Shown here piece after piece: positions 3,959 through 57,315 of a stretch of 63,133 nt of DNA; the stretch's first letter is position 1; each line of letters opens with the position of its first letter. The stretch comes from an uncultured bacterium (GTDB taxonomy: Bacteria > Bdellovibrionota_C > UBA2361 > JANWWW01), in contig CALHSA010000002.1 of NCBI GenBank assembly GCA_938038205.1, forward strand, positions 1 through 63,133. Reading direction: 5' to 3'. Below the pieces are notes generated by a model that worked only from the letters and a program-made list of their open reading frames with translations, did not search any database and was not told the origin of the DNA. The position numbers were made by a program, and so were the translations under genes.

Positions 3959-6583
3959 TTAGGTTTGATATAAGGTTAGTGGTCCCGGGTTTTCCCCGCC
4001 CGGGACTTTTTTTATTTTTAAAACCAAACGGTTTTTACTTTCTTCAAACCAAGCTCTACTAGTAAAAGTAGCGATTTTAGCAATTAATAATCTCTTTAAA
4101 AGGTAATTTCCTGATAACTTTATATTCTTTCTTAAGTTGTATTTTTTATCTCTAAGCTTAATCAGAGCGAGTAACTTCAAAATTTTTAGTTTAAGTTTTA
4201 AGATTTTAGTTTTTATATAACCTTCATCGATGTTGAAGTAGTAACGAAGTTTAAATTTACCCTTTGGTTTTAAAAGAAAATGTATAATTAACCAAATCAT
4301 TACAGCGATATTTCTTACTGTTCGCTGAAACACTAAGTTAAATATCGTAGAATCTTTTCTTCGATATTTAAACTTTTTCACTAAATTAAGGGCTATTTTT
4401 TTTAATCCAATCTTGATAACTTGATTCACTGTTGTTTGATTTCGGAACCAAAAGTTTTTTACTGTACTTAGAGTTTTATTTTTAATCTTTAGTGAATATT
4501 TAATTATAATTCTTGATTTTAATAATTCTCTTATATAGCTAGTAGAGTTTTTTACGATTGATTTTAATGATTCCCTTACATTGTAATACTTACAGTCGCG
4601 TTTATGTTTAGTTAGTCCTTCCCTTTTGTTTAAAAGTAATTTAACTCGCAAATAAAATTTCAGTTGATTCAGTCTAATTGACTTTAATATTATCATCAAT
4701 CTCTTGTGGATGAAGGTCTTAATTGAGTGAGTTCCTCTTATTTGGAGATCTCTTATAAGTGAAAGAGTGTTAAATCTTGTTTTAAGTGTTAATAATTTCA
4801 GTAGCGGATTCCTATTATTTTTTAATCTAGCATAAGATTTGGAGAGTGAACCATTAAATGAGGGTGAAAAAATAACTCTGTGTAACTTTCGTAATATATC
4901 ATGGAGCCTATAAAAAATTTTTGTATCAGAGATAAGCTGTTTTACATAAGTTCCTTTAAAAGCTAAGACTTCATTTAAATTAAATTTCACAAGTGGGGGA
5001 GTTCGATTTGGTATCAGTGATTTAATCACCGGATTTCTCTTTTCGCCATAACTTTTTTTGATTGGTAATTTAAAATTAAATGAAACTGCACTATTTTTGT
5101 GTCTGTCTAACGTACCCTCCCCTTTCTCAAGCTTTAAAGTTTTAAGATTTGTATTGGGTTTATTATGTGCACCTTTGTATTTTTTTAATCTAACTATCGA
5201 TCCCTCGGAAAAAAACTTATTTTTGTTGCTCTTTTCTGAATACTTGTCTAAAGTATTCGGCTTTATCTTTCTTGGTTCCTGATATTTGGAATTGGGAGAG
5301 AATATAACATATAGTTTTTTATTTGAGGGGTTTACAGTAGTAAATAAAGGATTTCCGAGAACCAAATTAGTTCTTTCTGTTAGTTCTTTAACCCTTAACT
5401 TATAAGTTTGGTCTTGAGACCTTACGCTTTTATTTGGAGCTGATTTGCTATGTAAGTTAGGAGTTGAGTTATGATTTTTATGTGCATTTTCAAATCCTTT
5501 TAAACTATATTTTGTAATCACTCCCTGGTTGTCGGAGATATTCAGTGTTTCAGGATTAGAATTTAGTATAAAATTGGAACTTTCAATCCGATTCCTTAGA
5601 GGCTGTAATAAGGTATCTAAAGAGCCTTCCCTAGAGAGAGTCAAAAGATTGTGATCTAGTAAAAGAGAAGATTCGAGTGTTTCAATATCGTTGAATATAT
5701 TGTACCTCTGAGGCTTATTTTTTTGAGACTGAAACAACGTGTTTGAAGGCTTTTCCTTTAAAGGTTTAAGATACTTATTTTTATTTCTATTTGCCGTATG
5801 TATTAAGTGCATGGTTAATTTCGGTGGTTTTTGTGCAGGATCTGATTTTGTGCTAGCAATCTCAGTATAATGTTTATTTTCACTTTTATAAAAAAGCGTG
5901 CTTATTTGATCCCTATCAGTAGAGAAAAGAAATCTCTCAGGGAATGATTTAAAATGTTCCCTTATTAACACGTAAAACCTTAACATGTTCATTAAATATG
6001 TGTAAGCCGAGGGTTTCTCTTCAAAGATTGATGACCAAAACCTTTCCTCGGAGCTTATCTTTTTTTGTAGTTGTTCGCCACTCTCACAGCCTATTAATTT
6101 TCTGAAAAAATTCTGTGGAGTTATTCCGCTTAATTTTAGTATACCATCCTCTGAGGCTTTAAAGTATTTTAAAAACTCCTCTAATCTGACTTTGTTCTTG
6201 ATGTTTATTGGAATACACGTAACATCTACACGATCCCCGTTTCTTTGAAATAAATAAGCAACAAGAATTTTACTATTAGGGGTACGATTACCATCAGGTG
6301 TTGAGATTATACAGCAAACTCCTTCTTCTCCAGCTATTAAAAGTTCTTCTAAGCGAAGATACTTTTTCTGAAGGTTTTCTTCACAATGAGCCACTAAATT
6401 CCTAAATTCAAAACCGTTACACATTAAAGTGGATTTACCATTCTCTTCTGGCACTATCTCATAACTAAAAGTAGTAGGTTTGTTAGACACTTCTCGTAGA
6501 AAACCAACAAAGAAAGCTGCGATAGTTTTGGATCCTAGATGTATATCTTTAGTTGGATTAGTACAATGAGTTATGGAGCTCAC
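3959..6583 (-). CDS. unknown large basic protein coupled to sppA
   Basis: I do not recognise this 874-aa protein. Residues 1-~220 look like a folded domain with beta-rich stretches (VCCIISTPDG, VDVTCIPINI). Residues ~230-530 are low-complexity and rich in Asn, Lys, Ser and Pro, and are probably disordered. The last ~340 residues are extremely rich in Lys, Arg, Leu and Ile, in helical runs, with one possible hydrophobic segment (AVMIWLIIHFLL). The GTG at 6583 overlaps the sppA stop as GTGA, so it is probably translationally coupled; a TTG at 6586 is the alternative. Its last codons run through the pilin terminator, so the end of the gene reads KKVPGGENPGPLTLYQT. It is uninterrupted over 2.6 kb, which argues for a real gene. 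Confidence 0.6.
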   Translation of the reverse strand: MSSITHCTNPTKDIHLGSKTIAAFFVGFLREVSNKPTTFSYEIVPEENGKSTLMCNGFEFRNLVAHCEENLQKKYLRLEELLIAGEEGVCCIISTPDGNRTPNSKILVAYLFQRNGDRVDVTCIPINIKNKVRLEEFLKYFKASEDGILKLSGITPQNFFRKLIGCESGEQLQKKISSEERFWSSIFEEKPSAYTYLMNMLRFYVLIREHFKSFPERFLFSTDRDQISTLFYKSENKHYTEIASTKSDPAQKPPKLTMHLIHTANRNKNKYLKPLKEKPSNTLFQSQKNKPQRYNIFNDIETLESSLLLDHNLLTLSREGSLDTLLQPLRNRIESSNFILNSNPETLNISDNQGVITKYSLKGFENAHKNHNSTPNLHSKSAPNKSVRSQDQTYKLRVKELTERTNLVLGNPLFTTVNPSNKKLYVIFSPNSKYQEPRKIKPNTLDKYSEKSNKNKFFSEGSIVRLKKYKGAHNKPNTNLKTLKLEKGEGTLDRHKNSAVSFNFKLPIKKSYGEKRNPVIKSLIPNRTPPLVKFNLNEVLAFKGTYVKQLISDTKIFYRLHDILRKLHRVIFSPSFNGSLSKSYARLKNNRNPLLKLLTLKTRFNTLSLIRDLQIRGTHSIKTFIHKRLMIILKSIRLNQLKFYLRVKLLLNKREGLTKHKRDCKYYNVRESLKSIVKNSTSYIRELLKSRIIIKYSLKIKNKTLSTVKNFWFRNQTTVNQVIKIGLKKIALNLVKKFKYRRKDSTIFNLVFQRTVRNIAVMIWLIIHFLLKPKGKFKLRYYFNIDEGYIKTKILKLKLKILKLLALIKLRDKKYNLRKNIKLSGNYLLKRLLIAKIATFTSRAWFEESKNRLVLKIKKVPGGENPGPLTLYQT
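3982..4013 (+). terminator. rho-independent terminator of the pilin gene
   Basis: The arms gtcccggg (3982-3989) and cccgggac (3999-4006) form a strong 8-bp GC stem with a 9-nt loop, followed by seven T. It lies 31 nt after the pilin stop. The same DNA encodes the C-terminus of the convergent 874-aa gene. Confidence 0.92.
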
Positions 6584-40781: not shown

Positions 40782-43505
40782 TTAACCCAAGCCTTTTAGG
40801 AAAACATCTTTAGAAGTTGATCTCTCGGTGTTTGAGTCGTTTACTCTATCTGCCTCTACTAAATTTGCTCTAACTCCAGGATTAACTCCAAAAGGAGCTA
40901 TTTGAGATAAAATTTGTATTGTCTTCTTGATGTCCTTAGTTTGTGAAAAAACCTCAAAAAATAACTGATTATCATCACCATTGTTAGTTGAAATCCAGTA
41001 CAGTGTTGGTTCTAATGGTATGGCGAAAGCAGAGCTACCTAGATCAGAAGTAATGAAAAACTGAGATTCAACTCCCTTAATCGTTCTTAACTGATTTATA
41101 ACCTCAACTTGTTGGGGTAATAAGTTATATAGCTTTGCAGTTTGATGAAACTTAGCTGGATCTTGACGCAAGAAAATTTTGTAAGCACTATTTTGAATTA
41201 AAGCTTGCCCTCCTGAGCCCTCATAAAAATCATCTCCGCTTTGACTAGCAGCAATAACTATACCTTTTCTCTTTCTGTACAATCTAAATGCTGTTTCAAC
41301 AGTTTGAGAGCTAGTTTTTCCTATTAAATCATGAGCTTCATCAAAAACAAGGATCTTTCTAGTATCTAACTCTTTTGGATCATTCATGACTGTATCGGCC
41401 CATAACATGGCCACTTTCAAAAAAACCTTCTGAAGATTTTGATTCCTACTTAATGCTTTTAAATCAAAAACAATAAACCTCTCCTTTAACTCAAGTTTTC
41501 CAGGCCTATCAAAAAAACGAGAGTAAGTACCTTCGCCGTAATAATCATACAATAGGTTGGCTACTCTCTGGCGAATTGCAGCCATTTCCGGCGTTTCTTC
41601 AATTTTTCTAGGAGCTCTTAAAACATTTACAACGTCAGATAAAATAAACTCCCTTCTCCTGGGCCCTTCAAAATATATCCTATGCGCTTCTATCAGAGAT
41701 TCCAAAACAGCTACTCTCTCAAGTCTATCAGCATTCTCCAAACCAGCCATGTCAAGAATAATATCTGCACACAAATCCAGTAAATCCTTATAATCCTCAT
41801 GATTAGGATCTGGTGGTGTATTTCCAAGCCGTGCTAAAAAGTTCATGGAGGGAGCTTTTGCAGGTGAAGCTTCATAGACTCTTCCTCCAAAGATTTCAGC
41901 TACTTTTACAAAACCACAAGGTTGTCCTTGCATTCCCTTATCAAATATGAAAGTTATAGCAGGTTTCTCAATTATGCCGGAGATAGTTTTAGAAAAATGT
42001 CCTCGGTTTAAATGAATAATCAAAAAATTTAGAAGATAGCTTTTCCCAGCACCCGATACACCGGAAATTAACACATTTGGCGCCACTTGAGAGTCATACA
42101 AATCAAATCCAACTAATTCTCTACACCATAAGCTAGGAAGTATTAAGAGTTTATTTTCAGAACCTTTCCAGTTACCAAATGCTGGAACTAAATTTGGAGC
42201 TAAAGAACTCCGAATATAATTAGTCCACCCCGGACCATCAGTTATTGGATCATAAGCACCAGGAAGGCAGTGTATCATAGCTCCTAGATCTGAAATATCA
42301 TGCACCATACCCCTTGCTCCATTCATCTGGCTTATGTTAGAAATAGCAGCTTCCGCAGCTTTTTGTACCTCCTCTTTAGTTTTGCCAATCAAAAGTTGAT
42401 GAACTCCTATTTTTACTAGCTGACATTTCTTTTCATACATATCCTGAAGGATTTCTTTTATCCCTTTATACTGAGTCCCAAGTTTTTGGTTGTACCCAAA
42501 AGGAGTGTACAATCGCAAAGCTAGCAGATTATTTAGTGTTTCAAGCCTTTTTACTTGATCCTCAAAAGGCTCTTTGGAAAAGGTTACTGTTAAGATATTC
42601 TCGCAGGGTATAAAAAGAAGTTGCATAATTTGAAAAGGGGTCAACTCTCTTGGAATCTTGGTCATTGAAACAACCTTATAGTAAAACCCATCTTTTTTAA
42701 TTAATCCGTTCTCTGGGTGCTCTAGTGGTGTTTCAGAAATTTGATTTGATAACCAATCTAAAGGGTCCCAATTTGGTGTAGGATTAGAAACTGTTCTCCC
42801 CTTTTTTATTGAGTTTCTTTTGACACTTCTTTTATTTAAGATTGGATAAAGAATATCAATTAAATTCTGTGCATTAATACGTTTTAGATAAAGTTTCATG
42901 CTGTTTAACTGATGAACCTTGCCGGCAATTATGTTATTAAATTTTTCAGAGTAAATTTTATACTGAGCCTCTATTCCTAATGATTCTTTTTCGGATGAGA
43001 AAAGTTTAAGAGACTGCTTTATATTTTCTATGAATGTTGAAAAAAAACCTTTTACTCGCCAAGGGGGATCATATCTAAAGGCTATAATATATCTCATCTT
43101 ACGTGGACGAAGCGCATACTCACCTTGCTCTGCAGTTCTTAACAACATATGCGCCCATTTTTTACTTATCCAACCTGCTGTATTATTTAATGGATACTGA
43201 ATTAAATTTTTATAAATTAAATCATGAACATCAAATGTTGTTATAACCGAGATTTGAACCGAAATATCATCAGGAAGTGAGTCTAAAAACCCATGAAAAG
43301 ATTTATTAAATTCTAGTGCATCAGAATCAGAGACATTAACTATTGAAATCGGCTCAAATTCAAAAATTGACCATAAGCTAGCATCATGATGAATAAAGAG
43401 CCCATTCTTTTCATCATAACTGGCATATGGGAGTAAACTTGCAAAACTCTCTTCGTGTTCATATATCCTTTTTTTTTGAATATAACTAAGCGATACCATT
43501 CCCAA
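40782..43505 (-). CDS. TraC/VirB4-type conjugation ATPase
   Basis: VirB4-family ATPases power type IV secretion and conjugative pilus assembly. The 907-aa protein begins with the TraC-type N-terminal domain (LLPYASYDEKNGLFIHHDAS). The Walker A SGVSGAGKSYLLNF lies near residue 485, and the Walker B ILVFDEAHDLIGKTSS near 720. The SQSGDDF motif and the C-terminal FLRQDPAKF stretch are also typical. There is no signal or clear membrane span. The sole neighbour in the unit is a 403-aa unknown protein 45 nt upstream. No other tra/vir gene, relaxase or transposase is visible here, so this is an orphan or part of a split system. Confidence 0.88.
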   Translation of the reverse strand: MGMVSLSYIQKKRIYEHEESFASLLPYASYDEKNGLFIHHDASLWSIFEFEPISIVNVSDSDALEFNKSFHGFLDSLPDDISVQISVITTFDVHDLIYKNLIQYPLNNTAGWISKKWAHMLLRTAEQGEYALRPRKMRYIIAFRYDPPWRVKGFFSTFIENIKQSLKLFSSEKESLGIEAQYKIYSEKFNNIIAGKVHQLNSMKLYLKRINAQNLIDILYPILNKRSVKRNSIKKGRTVSNPTPNWDPLDWLSNQISETPLEHPENGLIKKDGFYYKVVSMTKIPRELTPFQIMQLLFIPCENILTVTFSKEPFEDQVKRLETLNNLLALRLYTPFGYNQKLGTQYKGIKEILQDMYEKKCQLVKIGVHQLLIGKTKEEVQKAAEAAISNISQMNGARGMVHDISDLGAMIHCLPGAYDPITDGPGWTNYIRSSLAPNLVPAFGNWKGSENKLLILPSLWCRELVGFDLYDSQVAPNVLISGVSGAGKSYLLNFLIIHLNRGHFSKTISGIIEKPAITFIFDKGMQGQPCGFVKVAEIFGGRVYEASPAKAPSMNFLARLGNTPPDPNHEDYKDLLDLCADIILDMAGLENADRLERVAVLESLIEAHRIYFEGPRRREFILSDVVNVLRAPRKIEETPEMAAIRQRVANLLYDYYGEGTYSRFFDRPGKLELKERFIVFDLKALSRNQNLQKVFLKVAMLWADTVMNDPKELDTRKILVFDEAHDLIGKTSSQTVETAFRLYRKRKGIVIAASQSGDDFYEGSGGQALIQNSAYKIFLRQDPAKFHQTAKLYNLLPQQVEVINQLRTIKGVESQFFITSDLGSSAFAIPLEPTLYWISTNNGDDNQLFFEVFSQTKDIKKTIQILSQIAPFGVNPGVRANLVEADRVNDSNTERSTSKDVFLKGLG

Positions 43506-51865: not shown

Positions 51866-52102
51866 ATGAGCAAACAATCAAGAAAAAAGGATAGAGATTC
51901 TACCCAAACTAATGAGATTGTAAATATGATTAACCATCCTGATCTGCCTTTAATACATAAGCTTGTACTGTTTAATCTTCTATTTAAAAACAAAGAATTA
52001 AACTCTTTCTATTATGAGAACACCCAAGCACTCGAGGAAATTCGCAAGAACTGTGAATTATTAGGCTATAAAGGATGGGTTGGTAAAGAATCTAATAATT
52101 GA
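51866..52102 (+). CDS. small protein upstream of sctV-like gene
   Basis: I do not recognise this 78-aa protein. It has a charged N-terminus (SKQSRKKDRDST) and an alpha-helical remainder, and ends YKGWVGKESNN. No signal or membrane segment is present. It is 26 nt upstream of the sctV-like gene on the same strand and probably cotranscribed. A TATAAT at 51834-51839 lies about 27 nt before its start, so this is probably the first gene of the unit. A chaperone or regulator of export is possible but unsupported. Confidence 0.55.
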   Translation: MSKQSRKKDRDSTQTNEIVNMINHPDLPLIHKLVLFNLLFKNKELNSFYYENTQALEEIRKNCELLGYKGWVGKESNN

Positions 52103-52128
52103 TTTGAGTAAATTATAAGAATTAGAGG

Positions 52129-53997
52129 GTGAGGTATTATGAAGTTTTAGCAGTTATATTAATATTAGGTTTAGGATTTCTTTTAGTCTTACCAATCCCC
52201 CCAATTATATTAGACTTTGTCATTACCCTAAATATCGCCTTATCAATTCTAATGCTTGCCTCCTGTTTATTTACAATTAGAATTAGTAATCTTTTGATTT
52301 TTCCAACTATCCTTTTAATACTAACTCTTCTTCGAATTGCAACTAACGTGGCAACAACTAGGATGATTTTAACTCAAGCTTACGCTGGAGAAATCATAAA
52401 TACATTTGGCAAGGTTTTAATTCAAGGAGAGGTATTAGTTGGATTGATTATTTTCTCATTAATCTCATTAGTGTCGTTAATTATTATATCAAGAGGAGCG
52501 TTAAGAATATCAGAGGTAGCCGCAAGATTCACCTTAGATGCTATGCCAACGAGGCAAATCGCTATAGAACAAGAATTTAAAGAGGGGGAGATAAGTTTTC
52601 GAGAAGCACAGAGGAAACGAGATGAATTAAGAAAGGAGAGCATGCTTTATGGATCCATGGAAGGAGCAATGAAATTTATCCAGGGAGACGCAATTATTAG
52701 TGTTATTACAGTTTTAATAAACTTGGGTGGAGGAATCTTTATAGGTATGAAAAATAAATTAACCTTTCAACAAGCTCTTGAAAAATATAGTGTTCTTACC
52801 GTAGGAGATGGTTTAGTAGCACAAATCCCTGCTCTATTCTTAGCGATCTCTGCAGGTATTATTGTTTCCCGTGTAAGCTCTCTCGCCAATGAGAGTATTC
52901 TAAAGGAAACATTACAGAATATTTTTTCACGAAAAGATACCCTACTTATTACCGGTTTGGTTTTACTCGGAATCAGCCTAATACCTGGAGTTCCCTCAAT
53001 ATCGTTTTTTGTAATTGGATTTGGATTTATAGTTGCTGGATTTTTAATTCCATCTAAACAAACGTTTTATGAAAAACTTGATCCCTCACAGATTTTTCTT
53101 CTTGAAATTCCTGAAGTAAAGTTACAACATTTTTCACTGGATACATTACAAGAATTTTCAGACAGAATATGTAACATCCTCTCAGAGGTACTAAACCTCC
53201 CTATTCCCAAAATCATTTTATCATCTAGTAAAAGCACTGAAATTTATCTAAAAATTAAAAATCGCAAGTATACGATCTCTGATTTAGGTTCAGATAAAAT
53301 GCTTATTAATGCTCCTATTTTTTACGCGCAACTCTTTAAAGATAAAGATATTTCAGAGATACGGATTCCACTTAGTGACATGATTGGACTTGTTGCATCT
53401 GCTTCAACCAAAACTAAGACCTTTGTATCAACTCTTAAAATAAGCTTTTTCTCCAACTTGGAATACGTATTATTAAAGGCTTATGAAACAATTTTAACCT
53501 CCCCAGAGACTTTTATAGATGTAACGGCAGTTTTAAATTTATTAAGAGATTTATCAAAAAGCTTCCCAGATCTTGAGAATATTATTAACTCCGATAAGTT
53601 TTTACCAGTTACAAAAATCTCAAGTCTTATTAGATGCTTGCTAAAGAATAATCTTTCTATTAACAGCTATCCGCTTTTTGTTGAATTAATAAATAATCTT
53701 TGTTTGAGGTATAATCAAACAAGATATGATGATACCCTTACAGTAGAAGATGTTTATACTTTGTTGATTGAAGAAGATTCGGGGGTTTTGGATCTTAGGG
53801 AAGAGGTGCTTTTTGATTTAGTTAGGTTTGGATGCGCTAAGCAGGAGTCAGGTATTGCAAGTGTGCTTGATAGGAATAGAAAATATGGAACGGTTCCTTT
53901 GGTGATTATAGAAGAAAATTCTGATTCTCTTAATAACTTAAGAGTTATTAATCAGTCGAAAAGCTTAAGAATAGATCCTTTTATGTTTAATTTTTGA
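52129..53997 (+). CDS. type III export gate protein, SctV-type (FlhA/SctV family)
   Basis: This family forms the nonameric export gate of injectisomes and flagella. Residues 1-~310 hold about eight membrane segments with LLRIATNVATTRMIL, the conserved RFTLDAMPTRQIAIEQEF loop and GDGLVAQIPALFLAISAGIIVSR (split: GDGLVAQIPAL, SAGIIVSR). The segment RKESMLYGSMEGAMKFIQGD matches the LYGxMxGAMKF form of SctV rather than the FYGAMDGASKF form of FlhA. The C-terminal cytoplasmic domain is ~290 residues. The total of 622 aa is shorter than usual (about 690). The start is GTG at 52129, because an in-frame stop lies just upstream and the nearby ATG (52139) is out of frame. No other secretion-ring gene is in the window. 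Confidence 0.88.
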   Translation: MRYYEVLAVILILGLGFLLVLPIPPIILDFVITLNIALSILMLASCLFTIRISNLLIFPTILLILTLLRIATNVATTRMILTQAYAGEIINTFGKVLIQGEVLVGLIIFSLISLVSLIIISRGALRISEVAARFTLDAMPTRQIAIEQEFKEGEISFREAQRKRDELRKESMLYGSMEGAMKFIQGDAIISVITVLINLGGGIFIGMKNKLTFQQALEKYSVLTVGDGLVAQIPALFLAISAGIIVSRVSSLANESILKETLQNIFSRKDTLLITGLVLLGISLIPGVPSISFFVIGFGFIVAGFLIPSKQTFYEKLDPSQIFLLEIPEVKLQHFSLDTLQEFSDRICNILSEVLNLPIPKIILSSSKSTEIYLKIKNRKYTISDLGSDKMLINAPIFYAQLFKDKDISEIRIPLSDMIGLVASASTKTKTFVSTLKISFFSNLEYVLLKAYETILTSPETFIDVTAVLNLLRDLSKSFPDLENIINSDKFLPVTKISSLIRCLLKNNLSINSYPLFVELINNLCLRYNQTRYDDTLTVEDVYTLLIEEDSGVLDLREEVLFDLVRFGCAKQESGIASVLDRNRKYGTVPLVIIEENSDSLNNLRVINQSKSLRIDPFMFNF

Positions 53998-54003
53998 TTT
54001 AAC

Positions 54004-56247
54004 ATGGTAAAGTTTGAAAAAAAAATTTTTGGTAAACAATTTGAGATTGATAGTCATGCAATTGATTTAGTATTTCATAGTGTTTTTAGGGCTACAGATG
54101 TAACTACTGGTAAATCAGTAGCCATAGTTGTTTCTTTATCTCCACTAAAAAATGATCCTTCTGTTCAAGATTCATACATAGAAAGAATGAATCTTGTAGC
54201 GACACTAAATCATCAATTGTACCCAGTTATCAAATTTGGAATCGATTCAAATCTGCATTGTTTCTCTGTTATTAAGGCCCTAGATGGCATAAATATTTTT
54301 ACCAAGGTTCGTGATTTTGCAGAAGCTGAGAGAAGATTTGTTTTAATCCTTAAGGCACTTCTATTTTTTTATAGAAATGGGGTAGCCTTTGGGGACTTAT
54401 CAGACGGATCTTTTATGTTAGAAAGGAGTGGTAACATTAGGTTTATTTGCGGAGTTGGTGATATAAGTAACTTACTTCAAGACTCCTCCACTTACAACAA
54501 AAAGATTGCTAGCATTTACATTCATCCCAATCAAGATCCCTTTAAACGAGATGTATATAGCCTTGGAGTAATTGCAAGTAAACTTTTCACTGGCGAATAC
54601 CCACAGCCTGAATTAAAACTCGAACACTTAAGATTTCCGCCACCTAGTTGGTTTTTAGGACTTGTACCTAAAATGTTGGAGCTCCAACTAACTTCTGTTG
54701 AACAGGTTGCTGAAGAGTATGAAAAATTAAAAACATCAGTAACTGCACTTCAAAAAGTAAACGATATTAAAGCCCCCAAAATTCAAGCTGCTCAGCAAAC
54801 GGTAGTTACGATTGGCCCTCAACTCGCTACTTCAAGTGGAACTATTACTAAAAAAATTAGACATCCTAGCATTAGTAAACCAATAGTTTTCATCGGTGTT
54901 GGAATTGGTGTATTTTTAATTTCACTTATTGTTCTTTACATTCTAAGTTCACTAAAAGGTCCTGTTATCCAAGTTGCATCTCAAAGTCATAAAGATCAAG
55001 GCATTGATTTGCAAACGCTAAAATCACTCTCAAATTCAGATGACCCTGTTTCGCTTAAAACTTTAGTCTCATTATTGGAGGATGCTTCTAATCTTCAAGA
55101 GTATCAACAAATTCATCAAGCAATACTACTTAGGGCAATAAGACAAGGAATGAGTATTTCAGCAGAGTTAGTAAGAAGGTGGGCGCTGAAATTCTTTGAT
55201 CAAGGGCAAAAGTTACCAATCTCACAAATTTACGCTGTTTTTGATGTAATTTTACCAGTTGAGTCTTTTTTGGAAATTTTAAACAATCTCAAATCATTAG
55301 ATGAAACTGCCGCGAAGCTCCTTGCAGTTGGCTATTGTCTTGATCGAAAAGATGACAATTTTACCAAAATAGTTATTTCTGAGTTTTTTAAAAAAGATTT
55401 AAGTATTCAGGAGTTAGTAATATCAGATTCGGATCTTTTAATGGAATTTGGTGATCTTGCTATTAAATATACAGATATTCCTACTGAGAAACTTTTCCTA
55501 ATCCACCATAATCTTATCTCATGGGGCTTTGATCAAAAAGCGCAGCAGGTCAAAGAAGAGCTTGAAGAAAGAGAGTTAAATTATAAGCAAAAAATAATTT
55601 TGAAACTTTTAGATAATCCACTTCCGACTCAGGCAAAACTATTTCTGAGCAGAGTATTAATCAATCAACAGTCATTAGATCTTTTAACTGGCTGGAGAGA
55701 CCCATTACTAGTTGATTTTGCTTTAGCCTCTTCACTCTTTTTTAATGATTCAGCCTCTCTTGAAATAATTTGGAGCTTAATTAATCAAGCTCCAATTCAG
55801 GATCCACTTTTAATGGAAGCTATACAGTTAGTTAAATCAAAATACTCTAATCAAAAACATGAATTTATAGAATTGCTCTCTCTTATACGATTTAATGAAC
55901 ATATTCCACCAATTGAAGGTATTGCTGTGTTGAAAAAATTTCTTCCACAGATAAAAAAAGATAAAAACTTCATTAATCTTATTTTTAATCTGAAAAATCC
56001 AGAACTAATCACTCTGGCTTTTAATCATTTCAAGGATTATTTATCCATAGATATGTTACTCATGTTTCTTACACATCCAGTTCCCGATATAAAAGCAATG
56101 GCAATTGTTTCACTTAAAAATGTAAAAGATATTGGAGCGTTGAAATTAATAATTAACAATTACGAAAAAGAGAAAGACCCTAAAATACGACAACTGTATG
56201 AGGCTAATTTTTGGGTTATTCAAGAGAGAATTAATAAACAAAATTAA
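54004..56247 (+). CDS. membrane pseudokinase with helical-repeat C-terminus
   Basis: The first ~245 residues have a Ser/Thr-kinase fold but lack key residues. The beta-3 Lys position is VAIV (39-42). The catalytic loop is FGDLSDGSF (129-137), keeping Asp but losing the His, Lys and Asn. The DFG motif is replaced by CGVGD (149-153). The structural segment RDVYSLGVIASKLFTGEYP (182-200) is well preserved. A single membrane span lies at about 293-315. The last ~420 residues are all-helical with a HEAT-like repeat look (DIKAMAIVSLKNVKDIGALK). It is 6 nt after the sctV-like gene. Chlamydial type III operons also carry a kinase-like protein (Pkn5), which is a possible parallel. Confidence 0.75.
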   Translation: MVKFEKKIFGKQFEIDSHAIDLVFHSVFRATDVTTGKSVAIVVSLSPLKNDPSVQDSYIERMNLVATLNHQLYPVIKFGIDSNLHCFSVIKALDGINIFTKVRDFAEAERRFVLILKALLFFYRNGVAFGDLSDGSFMLERSGNIRFICGVGDISNLLQDSSTYNKKIASIYIHPNQDPFKRDVYSLGVIASKLFTGEYPQPELKLEHLRFPPPSWFLGLVPKMLELQLTSVEQVAEEYEKLKTSVTALQKVNDIKAPKIQAAQQTVVTIGPQLATSSGTITKKIRHPSISKPIVFIGVGIGVFLISLIVLYILSSLKGPVIQVASQSHKDQGIDLQTLKSLSNSDDPVSLKTLVSLLEDASNLQEYQQIHQAILLRAIRQGMSISAELVRRWALKFFDQGQKLPISQIYAVFDVILPVESFLEILNNLKSLDETAAKLLAVGYCLDRKDDNFTKIVISEFFKKDLSIQELVISDSDLLMEFGDLAIKYTDIPTEKLFLIHHNLISWGFDQKAQQVKEELEERELNYKQKIILKLLDNPLPTQAKLFLSRVLINQQSLDLLTGWRDPLLVDFALASSLFFNDSASLEIIWSLINQAPIQDPLLMEAIQLVKSKYSNQKHEFIELLSLIRFNEHIPPIEGIAVLKKFLPQIKKDKNFINLIFNLKNPELITLAFNHFKDYLSIDMLLMFLTHPVPDIKAMAIVSLKNVKDIGALKLIINNYEKEKDPKIRQLYEANFWVIQERINKQN

Positions 56248-56662
56248 CTCACTATTTTTACTAGGTAGCCTGGTAGTGTTATCTTGCTCAAAGGTAGGTA
56301 TACCTCCAAGAAGTAAGTTAGAGCTAATTCCACTGTATCACCTTGAGAATGGCAAGGTAGATTTACTTGAAGATTACCCAGGGTATAAACAGATCATCTT
56401 TTGGAAGACCTCTTGTTTTTACTCCGTCAGAAAATTAAGAGAGTTCTCTAGAGAGAGTAGAAATGGAATTAAACTTGCTGTTTCATTAGATGAATTGGAA
56501 AAAAAGAACAAGGTTATTGAAATAACTAAACCAATACAAAATGTTAAACATTTTTTTTCGGGGAATGGTACTCTTGATGCTGCATGGATTAAAGTAGATG
56601 GTTACGCTGTACCCGTTATTCTTCACATTTCTCCAGAAAATATTCTAATAAAAGTAGAGTGA
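56198..56662 (+). CDS. lipoprotein, possibly thioredoxin-like
   Basis: The signal region KINSLFLLGSLVVLSC ends in a lipobox with Cys about residue 30. The rest has QIIFWKTSCFYSVRKLREFS, which resembles the FWxxWCxxCxxE strand-helix of TlpA-type thioredoxins, but the second Cys is Ser; a redox role is therefore doubtful. Residues near the end (WIKVDGYAVPVILHIS) fit the cis-Pro strand region. Length 154 aa. It begins 50 nt inside the pseudokinase gene and overlaps the following gene by 4 nt, so all are probably one operon. Lipoprotein status is firm; the fold is inference. Confidence 0.65.
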   Translation: MRLIFGLFKRELINKINSLFLLGSLVVLSCSKVGIPPRSKLELIPLYHLENGKVDLLEDYPGYKQIIFWKTSCFYSVRKLREFSRESRNGIKLAVSLDELEKKNKVIEITKPIQNVKHFFSGNGTLDAAWIKVDGYAVPVILHISPENILIKVE

Positions 56663-57315
56663 ATTTTCTGGTTCTTCCAAAAGAGAGTTTAAAAGACAAT
56701 GTAGTAATTTTCAAAAACTGCAATATAGACTCGCAAGAGATTAGAGTGGTTGTAGAGAATTGCGGTAGTTTTTTAGTTAAAAATAACAATGGCGTTTGGG
56801 AAATAAATAAAAAGATATTGGTTGTCCCGGTTCAGATCTCATTTGGGATAGGATTTTGTCGACCCCAAACAACGAAAAAAATTCTTTATACAGCTGGATT
56901 TTTTGGGATAAAAATGATTAGTTTTCTAAAAACGCTTAAGTCAAACCACGATTATTCATTGAGTTCGGTTTATAAAAATCCAAAGAAATTTATTACTCCC
57001 GGTATGGAGCAATCCGGTAACTTTTTAGTCACAGATATTGGATTTGATAATTTTTTCAATTACATTCAAATAATAGAACCATCTAAAGCAATTATCTTTG
57101 ATTCTATGGGTAGTTACCCTAACGAGTTTTTCAACCTTATACGTGAAAAAGAGATTTTTATCATTGGGCCAGAACAAGGTTTCTCCTCTTCAGAGCTTGA
57201 TTTCGCAAAAAAAAGGGGAATTCAAGTTGTATCGCTTGGGACTTTCATTTTTCGACCTTTTCAGATAGTTGAATCAGTTTGCTTTTTGAAATATTTAAGT
57301 TGTGTTAACTTTTGA
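56659..57315 (+). CDS. RsmE-like SPOUT methyltransferase, divergent
   Basis: RsmE methylates U1498 of 16S rRNA at N3. The C-terminal SPOUT knot is recognisable in IFIIGPEQGFSSSELDFAKKRG and VVSLGTFIFRPFQIVES. The typical GPEGGFS is GPEQGFS and the usual LGxRILRTETA is changed. The N-terminal half is a PUA-like domain with weak similarity. Length is 218 aa (usually 240-250). The GTG start overlaps the lipoprotein gene stop by 4 nt. It could be a functional but divergent RsmE, or a related methyltransferase with another substrate. Confidence 0.7.
   Translation: MNFLVLPKESLKDNVVIFKNCNIDSQEIRVVVENCGSFLVKNNNGVWEINKKILVVPVQISFGIGFCRPQTTKKILYTAGFFGIKMISFLKTLKSNHDYSLSSVYKNPKKFITPGMEQSGNFLVTDIGFDNFFNYIQIIEPSKAIIFDSMGSYPNEFFNLIREKEIFIIGPEQGFSSSELDFAKKRGIQVVSLGTFIFRPFQIVESVCFLKYLSCVNF

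Follow-up and report, generated by a model that had tools for sequence, protein, structure and literature searches.

A SctV-type export gate encoded beside a membrane pseudokinase, and its link to Tad pilus operons in related genomes

How a type III export gate comes to be encoded beside a membrane pseudokinase, with no other secretion gene close by, is the question raised by a stretch of 63,133 nucleotides (hereafter the window) from an uncultured bacterium of the GTDB lineage Bacteria; Bdellovibrionota_C; UBA2361; JANWWW01 (contig CALHSA010000002.1 of assembly GCA_938038205.1). The genome, G000, is a draft metagenome-assembled genome of 1.22 Mb (80.8% complete), and its family is sampled by this genome and one other only (G001, 85% complete). 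A first-pass annotation, made from the letters alone, described a unit of five open reading frames (ORFs) at 51866-57315 that includes the gate, and it suggested a scattered or reduced type III system with a new accessory membrane complex. The unit is as described, tightly spaced on the plus strand, with gaps of 26 and 6 bp followed by overlaps of 50 and 4 bp. The gate is probably part of a needleless type III exporter of the non-flagellar kind that is assembled jointly with a Tad-type pilus, a reading that rests on the genes of the class to which the bacterium belongs.

In terms of gate identity, the window protein scores higher with the NCBIfam model for SctV (TIGR01399; 371.8 bits, the best of all models) than with that for FlhA (327.7 bits), yet the SctV score is about half of the curated cut-off of 692 bits, and the FlhA score misses its own cut-off of 772 bits. 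The LYGSMEGAMKF segment, on which the first-pass annotation had based an SctV assignment, is present. The N-terminal membrane half is conserved and retains the residues that are invariant in a five-sequence alignment of the clade; the C-terminal cytoplasmic domain is diverged, and the Pfam match stops at 534/657. A PDB sequence search matched an injectisome gate (7alw) best, and SsaV as well. Its nearest relatives are the gate of G001 (L050, 48% identity) and then those of L065, L063, and L064, with identity dropping to about 30% outside the family. Between the two family members the gene differs by 0.45/0.26/0.66 at the three codon positions, and the window sctV is therefore constrained.

The placement was examined with a quick tree of 73 sequences, for which a motif scan with an SctV alignment supplied references, the generic SctV motifs leading to named SctVs of many taxa. 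Gates were labeled F (flagellar), T (beside Tad genes), or H (paired with an SctRSTU cluster that includes a histidine kinase). The window protein falls within the T clade (support 99), the H-type gates likewise form a single clade (99), and both stand with injectisome and myxobacterial SctVs in a 55-row non-flagellar clade (100), away from the FlhAs of the class; the tree has long branches, and no branching order is claimed among T, H, and other SctVs. After the long branches were taken out, forcing the two window-family proteins to group with FlhA was 68 log units worse in an approximately unbiased (AU) test (p-AU 0.0005). Judged by its sequence, the gate is of the SctV type, non-flagellar and not an FlhA. 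The first-pass annotation had named, as the outcome that would speak against it, a gate inside FlhA together with flagellar genes elsewhere in the genome; flagellar genes are indeed found on other contigs, but the gate lies outside FlhA.

The company that the gate keeps in related genomes is nearly constant. In a survey covering 18 families of the class (27 relatives with coverage upstream of the T-type SctV and 28 with coverage downstream), tadC lies directly upstream of sctV in 27/27 loci, with a called ORF of <80 aa intervening in two, and the gene for the pseudokinase/HEAT protein (PKHEAT) lies directly downstream in 27/28, the exception being L168. The recurring order is FHA protein, Ser/Thr kinase, TadZ-like ATPase, Flp, CpaB, CpaF, TadB, TadC, SctV, and pseudokinase/HEAT protein, and Pfam identifies T2SSE/CpaF, two T2SSF proteins, RcpC/CpaB, Flp_Fap, and FHA; the loci thus contain CpaB, CpaF, TadB, TadC, and the Flp pilin by which a Tad system is recognized. 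Because SctV identity to the window protein is only about 30% outside its family, the shared order does not reflect recent common descent of one contig. This comparison of gene order, which the first pass had proposed, speaks against a free-standing new kind of type III secretion system (T3SS), as the unit sits inside a Tad pilus operon in the relatives, several of which also have a full non-flagellar basal-body set.

In this fuller form (families such as f2, f4, f6, f8, f11, and f14), the operon goes on to a double-FHA, single-span SctD-like protein, a zinc-ribbon/FHA protein, and SctJ and, where the contig extends, to SctO, SctQ, SctR, SctS, SctT, a short SctU, and a TPR protein. Pfam scores in fuller relatives are 61.7 bits for Yop-YscD_cpl, 65.2 for YscJ_FliF, 42.7 for FliJ, 56.6 for FliMN_C, and 81.9 for Bac_export_2, and SctRSTUV, SctJ, SctD, and SctQ are all recognized in full-cluster relatives. 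In many other relatives, the locus ends in a thioredoxin-fold lipoprotein and the SctD-to-SctU operon is found elsewhere (L158, L160, L162). The T-type SctU stops short of the autocleavage domain even in the fullest relatives and has no NPTH motif. A separate SctL-SctN operon is present in most full-cluster genomes; a sorting of SctN proteins into T and H classes by bit score did not hold in every genome. Neither a needle gene nor a translocon gene was recognized in the fetched loci, a result obtained without a dedicated needle search, and no secretin was seen in the Tad/T3SS loci read. One or two secretins are present in each of 21/21 relatives, and those of the two genomes typed are of the GspD and PilQ types only; a Tad-type RcpA/CpaC secretin was found neither in the loci nor in these two genomes.

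The pseudokinase that follows the gate matches Pkinase weakly (21.7 bits) and HEAT_2 with 23.2 bits; in the homolog of L152, the HEAT_2 match is above cut-off (32.8 bits). The VAIK lysine, the HRD/Asn catalytic loop, and the DFG motif are all lost in the window protein and in all genuine full-length members, and the true kinase of the same operon, used as alignment partner, retains VAIK, HRD, and DFG. A single membrane span covers residues 294-312, and nearly all members have one near residue 290-380. A basic stretch precedes the span, which suggests a cytoplasmic kinase half and a periplasmic repeat half. When the pseudokinase profile was searched against PDB sequences, kinases were among the sixty best matches listed. 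The AlphaFold model, computed from a single sequence, has a mean predicted local distance difference test (pLDDT) score of 47, and only the helical C-terminal half was taken from it. The first-pass description of a pseudokinase with a membrane span is borne out.

The lipoprotein of the window is homologous to a protein of a related locus (L065 12784-13248, 36.5 bits) that itself matches AhpC-TSA (46 bits). It has in common with the lipoprotein of the class the motif FSGN...D.A and a single-Cys site of the WCxxS type, and on these grounds it is a member of the unit. In G001, no such lipoprotein was found after the pseudokinase. Conservation across the class indicates that the pseudokinase and the lipoprotein are real partners of the gate, and to this extent the proposed accessory membrane complex stands. 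It does not extend to the two outer genes of the unit, described with the table.

The genome of the window carries what appears to be a scattered and reduced version of this system. Profile searches of the window's contig gave no match to FliF/SctJ, FliI/SctN, FlhB/SctU, FliP/SctR, or a secretin, and sctV and the pseudokinase gene sit in a 63-kb stretch flanked by housekeeping genes. The absence of other secretion genes noted in the first pass thus holds for the window but not for the genome, where the search of the remaining contigs that it recommended found both flagellar and non-flagellar genes: flhB-flhA and a flagellar fliP on contig C16, where FlhA is the full-length FHIPEP match of the genome (683.9 bits); fliF and fliI on C18; CpaB-CpaF-TadB-TadC on C13 (L164); an operon for SctD-like, FHA, p76, and SctQ-like proteins on C31 (L186); an SctN-like ATPase with an intact Walker A motif on C41; and, on C24 (L047), the SctR-S-T-U set of a second non-flagellar system, accompanied by a histidine kinase. 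We do not assign the C24 set to the window SctV as its own, as relatives show that this cluster belongs to the H-type system. In most of the class genomes searched, FHIPEP proteins come in as many as three kinds, and so do FliP proteins; G000 has two FHIPEP proteins only, FlhA and the window SctV.

Several further features of these contigs were observed. The H-type SctU is split into two genes, an N-terminal part without NPTH and a separate SctU_C-like ORF of 80-120 aa. A histidine kinase of 900-1080 aa separates the halves (on C24, L047 9904-10533, 10530-13310, and 13314-13556), and the split recurs in L157, L161, L169, and L170. Besides the Tad set on C13, contig C33 carries a further and more divergent one (CpaB, CpaF, TadB, TadC; L165 1450-5193). 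No secretin of any kind was found in G000, despite PilC/GspF-like genes, which could reflect incompleteness or loss. The fliG-like gene on C31 (L186 5413-6411) consists of two short ORFs of 123 and 134 aa, possibly a frameshift or a split gene.

With respect to reduction, both genomes of the family retain the operon for SctD-like, zinc-ribbon/FHA, and SctQ-like proteins near a fliG-like gene (L186, L187), and in both SctJ is missing from the place that it occupies in relatives, between the FHA protein and SctQ. A profile search of the two genomes for T- and H-type SctR (E<=10) detected only flagellar and H-type copies (the latter on C24 in G000) and no T-type SctR. A third genome, G003, still has SctJ, and its T-type SctR is already degenerate (40 bits); the reduction therefore looks graded. 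The suggestion of a scattered or reduced system is largely right, as the parts lie on at least three contigs and fall short of the set found in the class; the conclusion is provisional for a draft genome.

What the system would do, whether in signaling, coupling, substrate delivery, or any form of predation, is read here from homology. One operon of the class encodes a Tad motor and platform (CpaF, TadB, TadC), SctV, and a transmembrane pseudokinase with a putative periplasmic repeat domain, together with a presumed phospho-signaling set of an active Ser/Thr kinase, a PP2C phosphatase, and FHA proteins. Contact or another envelope signal may be relayed by the kinase and FHA proteins. The pseudokinase could serve as a non-catalytic scaffold that keeps the SctV ring beside the platform of the Tad system and extends into the periplasm, where the lipoprotein would be. 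The export gate would then deliver substrates into the periplasm, from which the Tad pilus would carry or push them outward. In the window family, the remaining parts are SctV-pseudokinase-lipoprotein in the window, the Tad set on C13, and the SctD-like/FHA/SctQ-like set on C31, and the system may either borrow the SctRSTU core of C24 or, instead of being a self-sufficient exporter, serve as a platform associated with Tad.

Several points weigh against this account. The sctV-pseudokinase pair is not adjacent to Tad genes in either G000 or G001, and the Flp pilin gene was not located in G000. The C41 ATPase groups with another type than the SctN of the full clusters and could serve either non-flagellar system. 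The Tad system of the class is likened to the Kil pilus of Myxococcus xanthus by its Tad gene content, and the working of the system is predicted from its genes. G000 is a draft, so the missing SctJ and SctR could lie outside the assembly; that explanation is weakened by the failure to find a cognate SctR in G001 as well, and by the contiguity of the SctJ-less operon in both genomes.

It is quite possible, if on balance not favored, that the SctV, pseudokinase, and lipoprotein of the window are no longer parts of an exporter and that the SctV ring survives only to scaffold or regulate the Tad motor. The lack of a cognate SctR in the two genomes, the loss of SctJ from a contiguous FHA2-p76-SctQ operon, the retention of the Tad motor genes, the diverged C-terminus of SctV, and the degenerate SctR of G003 would all be consistent with such co-option, but the membrane half of SctV retains its clade-invariant residues, and the C24 SctRSTU could provide a pore. 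The proposal of a single hybrid nanomachine that one operon encodes across the class, in which the gate feeds substrates to the Tad motor through the pseudokinase as adaptor and the SctV of the window family is re-used without pore subunits of its own, is one that we hold tentatively and consider doubtful.

That the window SctV is instead the gate of the H-type system is unlikely. G000 has an H-type SctRSTU and no H-type SctV of its own, the window protein being its only FHIPEP protein besides FlhA; however, both types of SctV occur in G001 alongside the same single H-type SctR, the window protein and its partner genes fall in the T clade and the T operon, and G000 is incomplete. Very improbable is an ordinary injectisome broken up by the fragmentation of the draft: non-flagellar SctV, SctQ-like, and SctD-like proteins exist and the assembly is fragmented, but the sctV-pseudokinase pair lies within a long stretch between housekeeping genes, neither needle and translocon genes in the fetched loci nor a dedicated secretin came to light, SctU lacks its autocleavage half even in the fullest relatives, and the link to Tad holds throughout the class. 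A divergent FlhA paralog for the flagellum is scarcely credible, for although G000 has a flagellar gene set, its canonical flhB-flhA is on C16, the tree and AU test place the window family outside FlhA, and the gene partners in relatives are those of Tad and T3SS.

The features of the window are collected in the table. The sole homolog found for the 78-aa protein is an 80-aa protein in the same place in G001 (L050 10055-10297, 32.9 bits), and the gene is absent from the loci of class members outside the family. The RsmE-family gene is co-oriented and overlaps the unit here, but it does not lie behind the unit in the loci of relatives, and we rejected it as a part of the system; the curated cut-off of its model is 41 bits.

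Table. Positions of the five-gene unit and of one further gene in the window
Feature	Position	Strand	Remarks
78-aa protein	51866..52102	+	opens the operon; lacks a membrane span; family-specific
SctV-type export gate, 622 aa	52129..53997	+	GTG start; T-type clade; FHIPEP 376 bits
Membrane pseudokinase PKHEAT, 747 aa	54004..56247	+	HEAT-like C-terminal half; Pkinase and HEAT_2 matches
Lipoprotein, 154 aa	56198..56662	+	lipobox VVLSC (read by eye); TlpA/AhpC-like, diverged
RsmE-family 16S rRNA methyltransferase, 218 aa	56659..57315	+	TIGR00046 49.2 bits; Methyltrans_RNA 58.2 bits
TraC/VirB4-like conjugation ATPase	40782-43505	-	TraC_F_IV 55.3 bits; housekeeping neighbors

Among known systems, flagellar FlhA is a homologous gate, of which G000 has its own copy elsewhere. 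Injectisome SctV belongs to the same family and the same side of the tree, whereas the window gate reaches about half of the SctV cut-off, has a divergent C-terminal domain, and is not part of an injectisome cluster. The genes of a Tad/Flp pilus (CpaB, CpaF, TadB, TadC, TadZ, Flp) directly precede SctV in relatives, with T3SS genes interleaved. The Hat-like structure (PMC9380563) is flagellar-T3SS-related and a different thing. Isolated SctV genes in Myxococcales and Bradymonadales metagenome-assembled genomes (L138 7115-8227, L110 6963-8153) have a kinase upstream and a zinc-ribbon/FHA-like protein downstream, company that echoes the class locus.

The architecture is most reminiscent of M. 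xanthus, in which the Kil (Tad) pilus and a needleless T3SS* cooperate in predation and Kil recruits the T3SS* to the place of contact with prey (PMC10433427, PMC8460266, PMC12075869). The T3SS* (MXAN_2434-2464) and Kil (MXAN_3102-3108 and 4648-4661) are encoded at separate loci, and the Kil loci also encode FHA proteins (PMC10433427, PMC8460266, PMC12075869). Herrou et al. (2025) found that the two act jointly and left open how (PMC12075869). As in M. xanthus, the class combines non-flagellar export-apparatus and sorting-platform genes, among which neither a needle gene nor a T3SS secretin was recognized, with a Tad-type pilus and several FHA proteins, and its SctD-like profile matches an Archangium FHA protein encoded next to SctV (64 bits). 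Unlike Kil, which has its own secretin, KilC (PMC10433427), the class has no Tad-type secretin in the two genomes typed; its SctVs form a clade of their own and are not nested among the myxobacterial ones; and, provisionally for a draft, G000 differs from a full T3SS* in having neither SctJ nor a T-type SctR.

A literature search, with preprints and most subscription papers outside its coverage, returned no report of T3SS and Tad genes in one operon. The position of the gate behind tadC and the conservation of the pseudokinase across the class are independent genomic evidence that the coupling of T3SS* and Tad is functional and old; they suggest that the needleless T3SS-Tad combination is not limited to myxobacteria and name the pseudokinase as a testable candidate for the coupling protein. 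A predatory use of the class system is a lead from homology. Whereas Tad and a needleless T3SS were previously known only as two separate, cooperating systems of predatory myxobacteria, the class brings them into one locus, with SctV directly behind tadC in a single operon with the pseudokinase/HEAT protein and, in contrast to M. xanthus, a shortened SctU.

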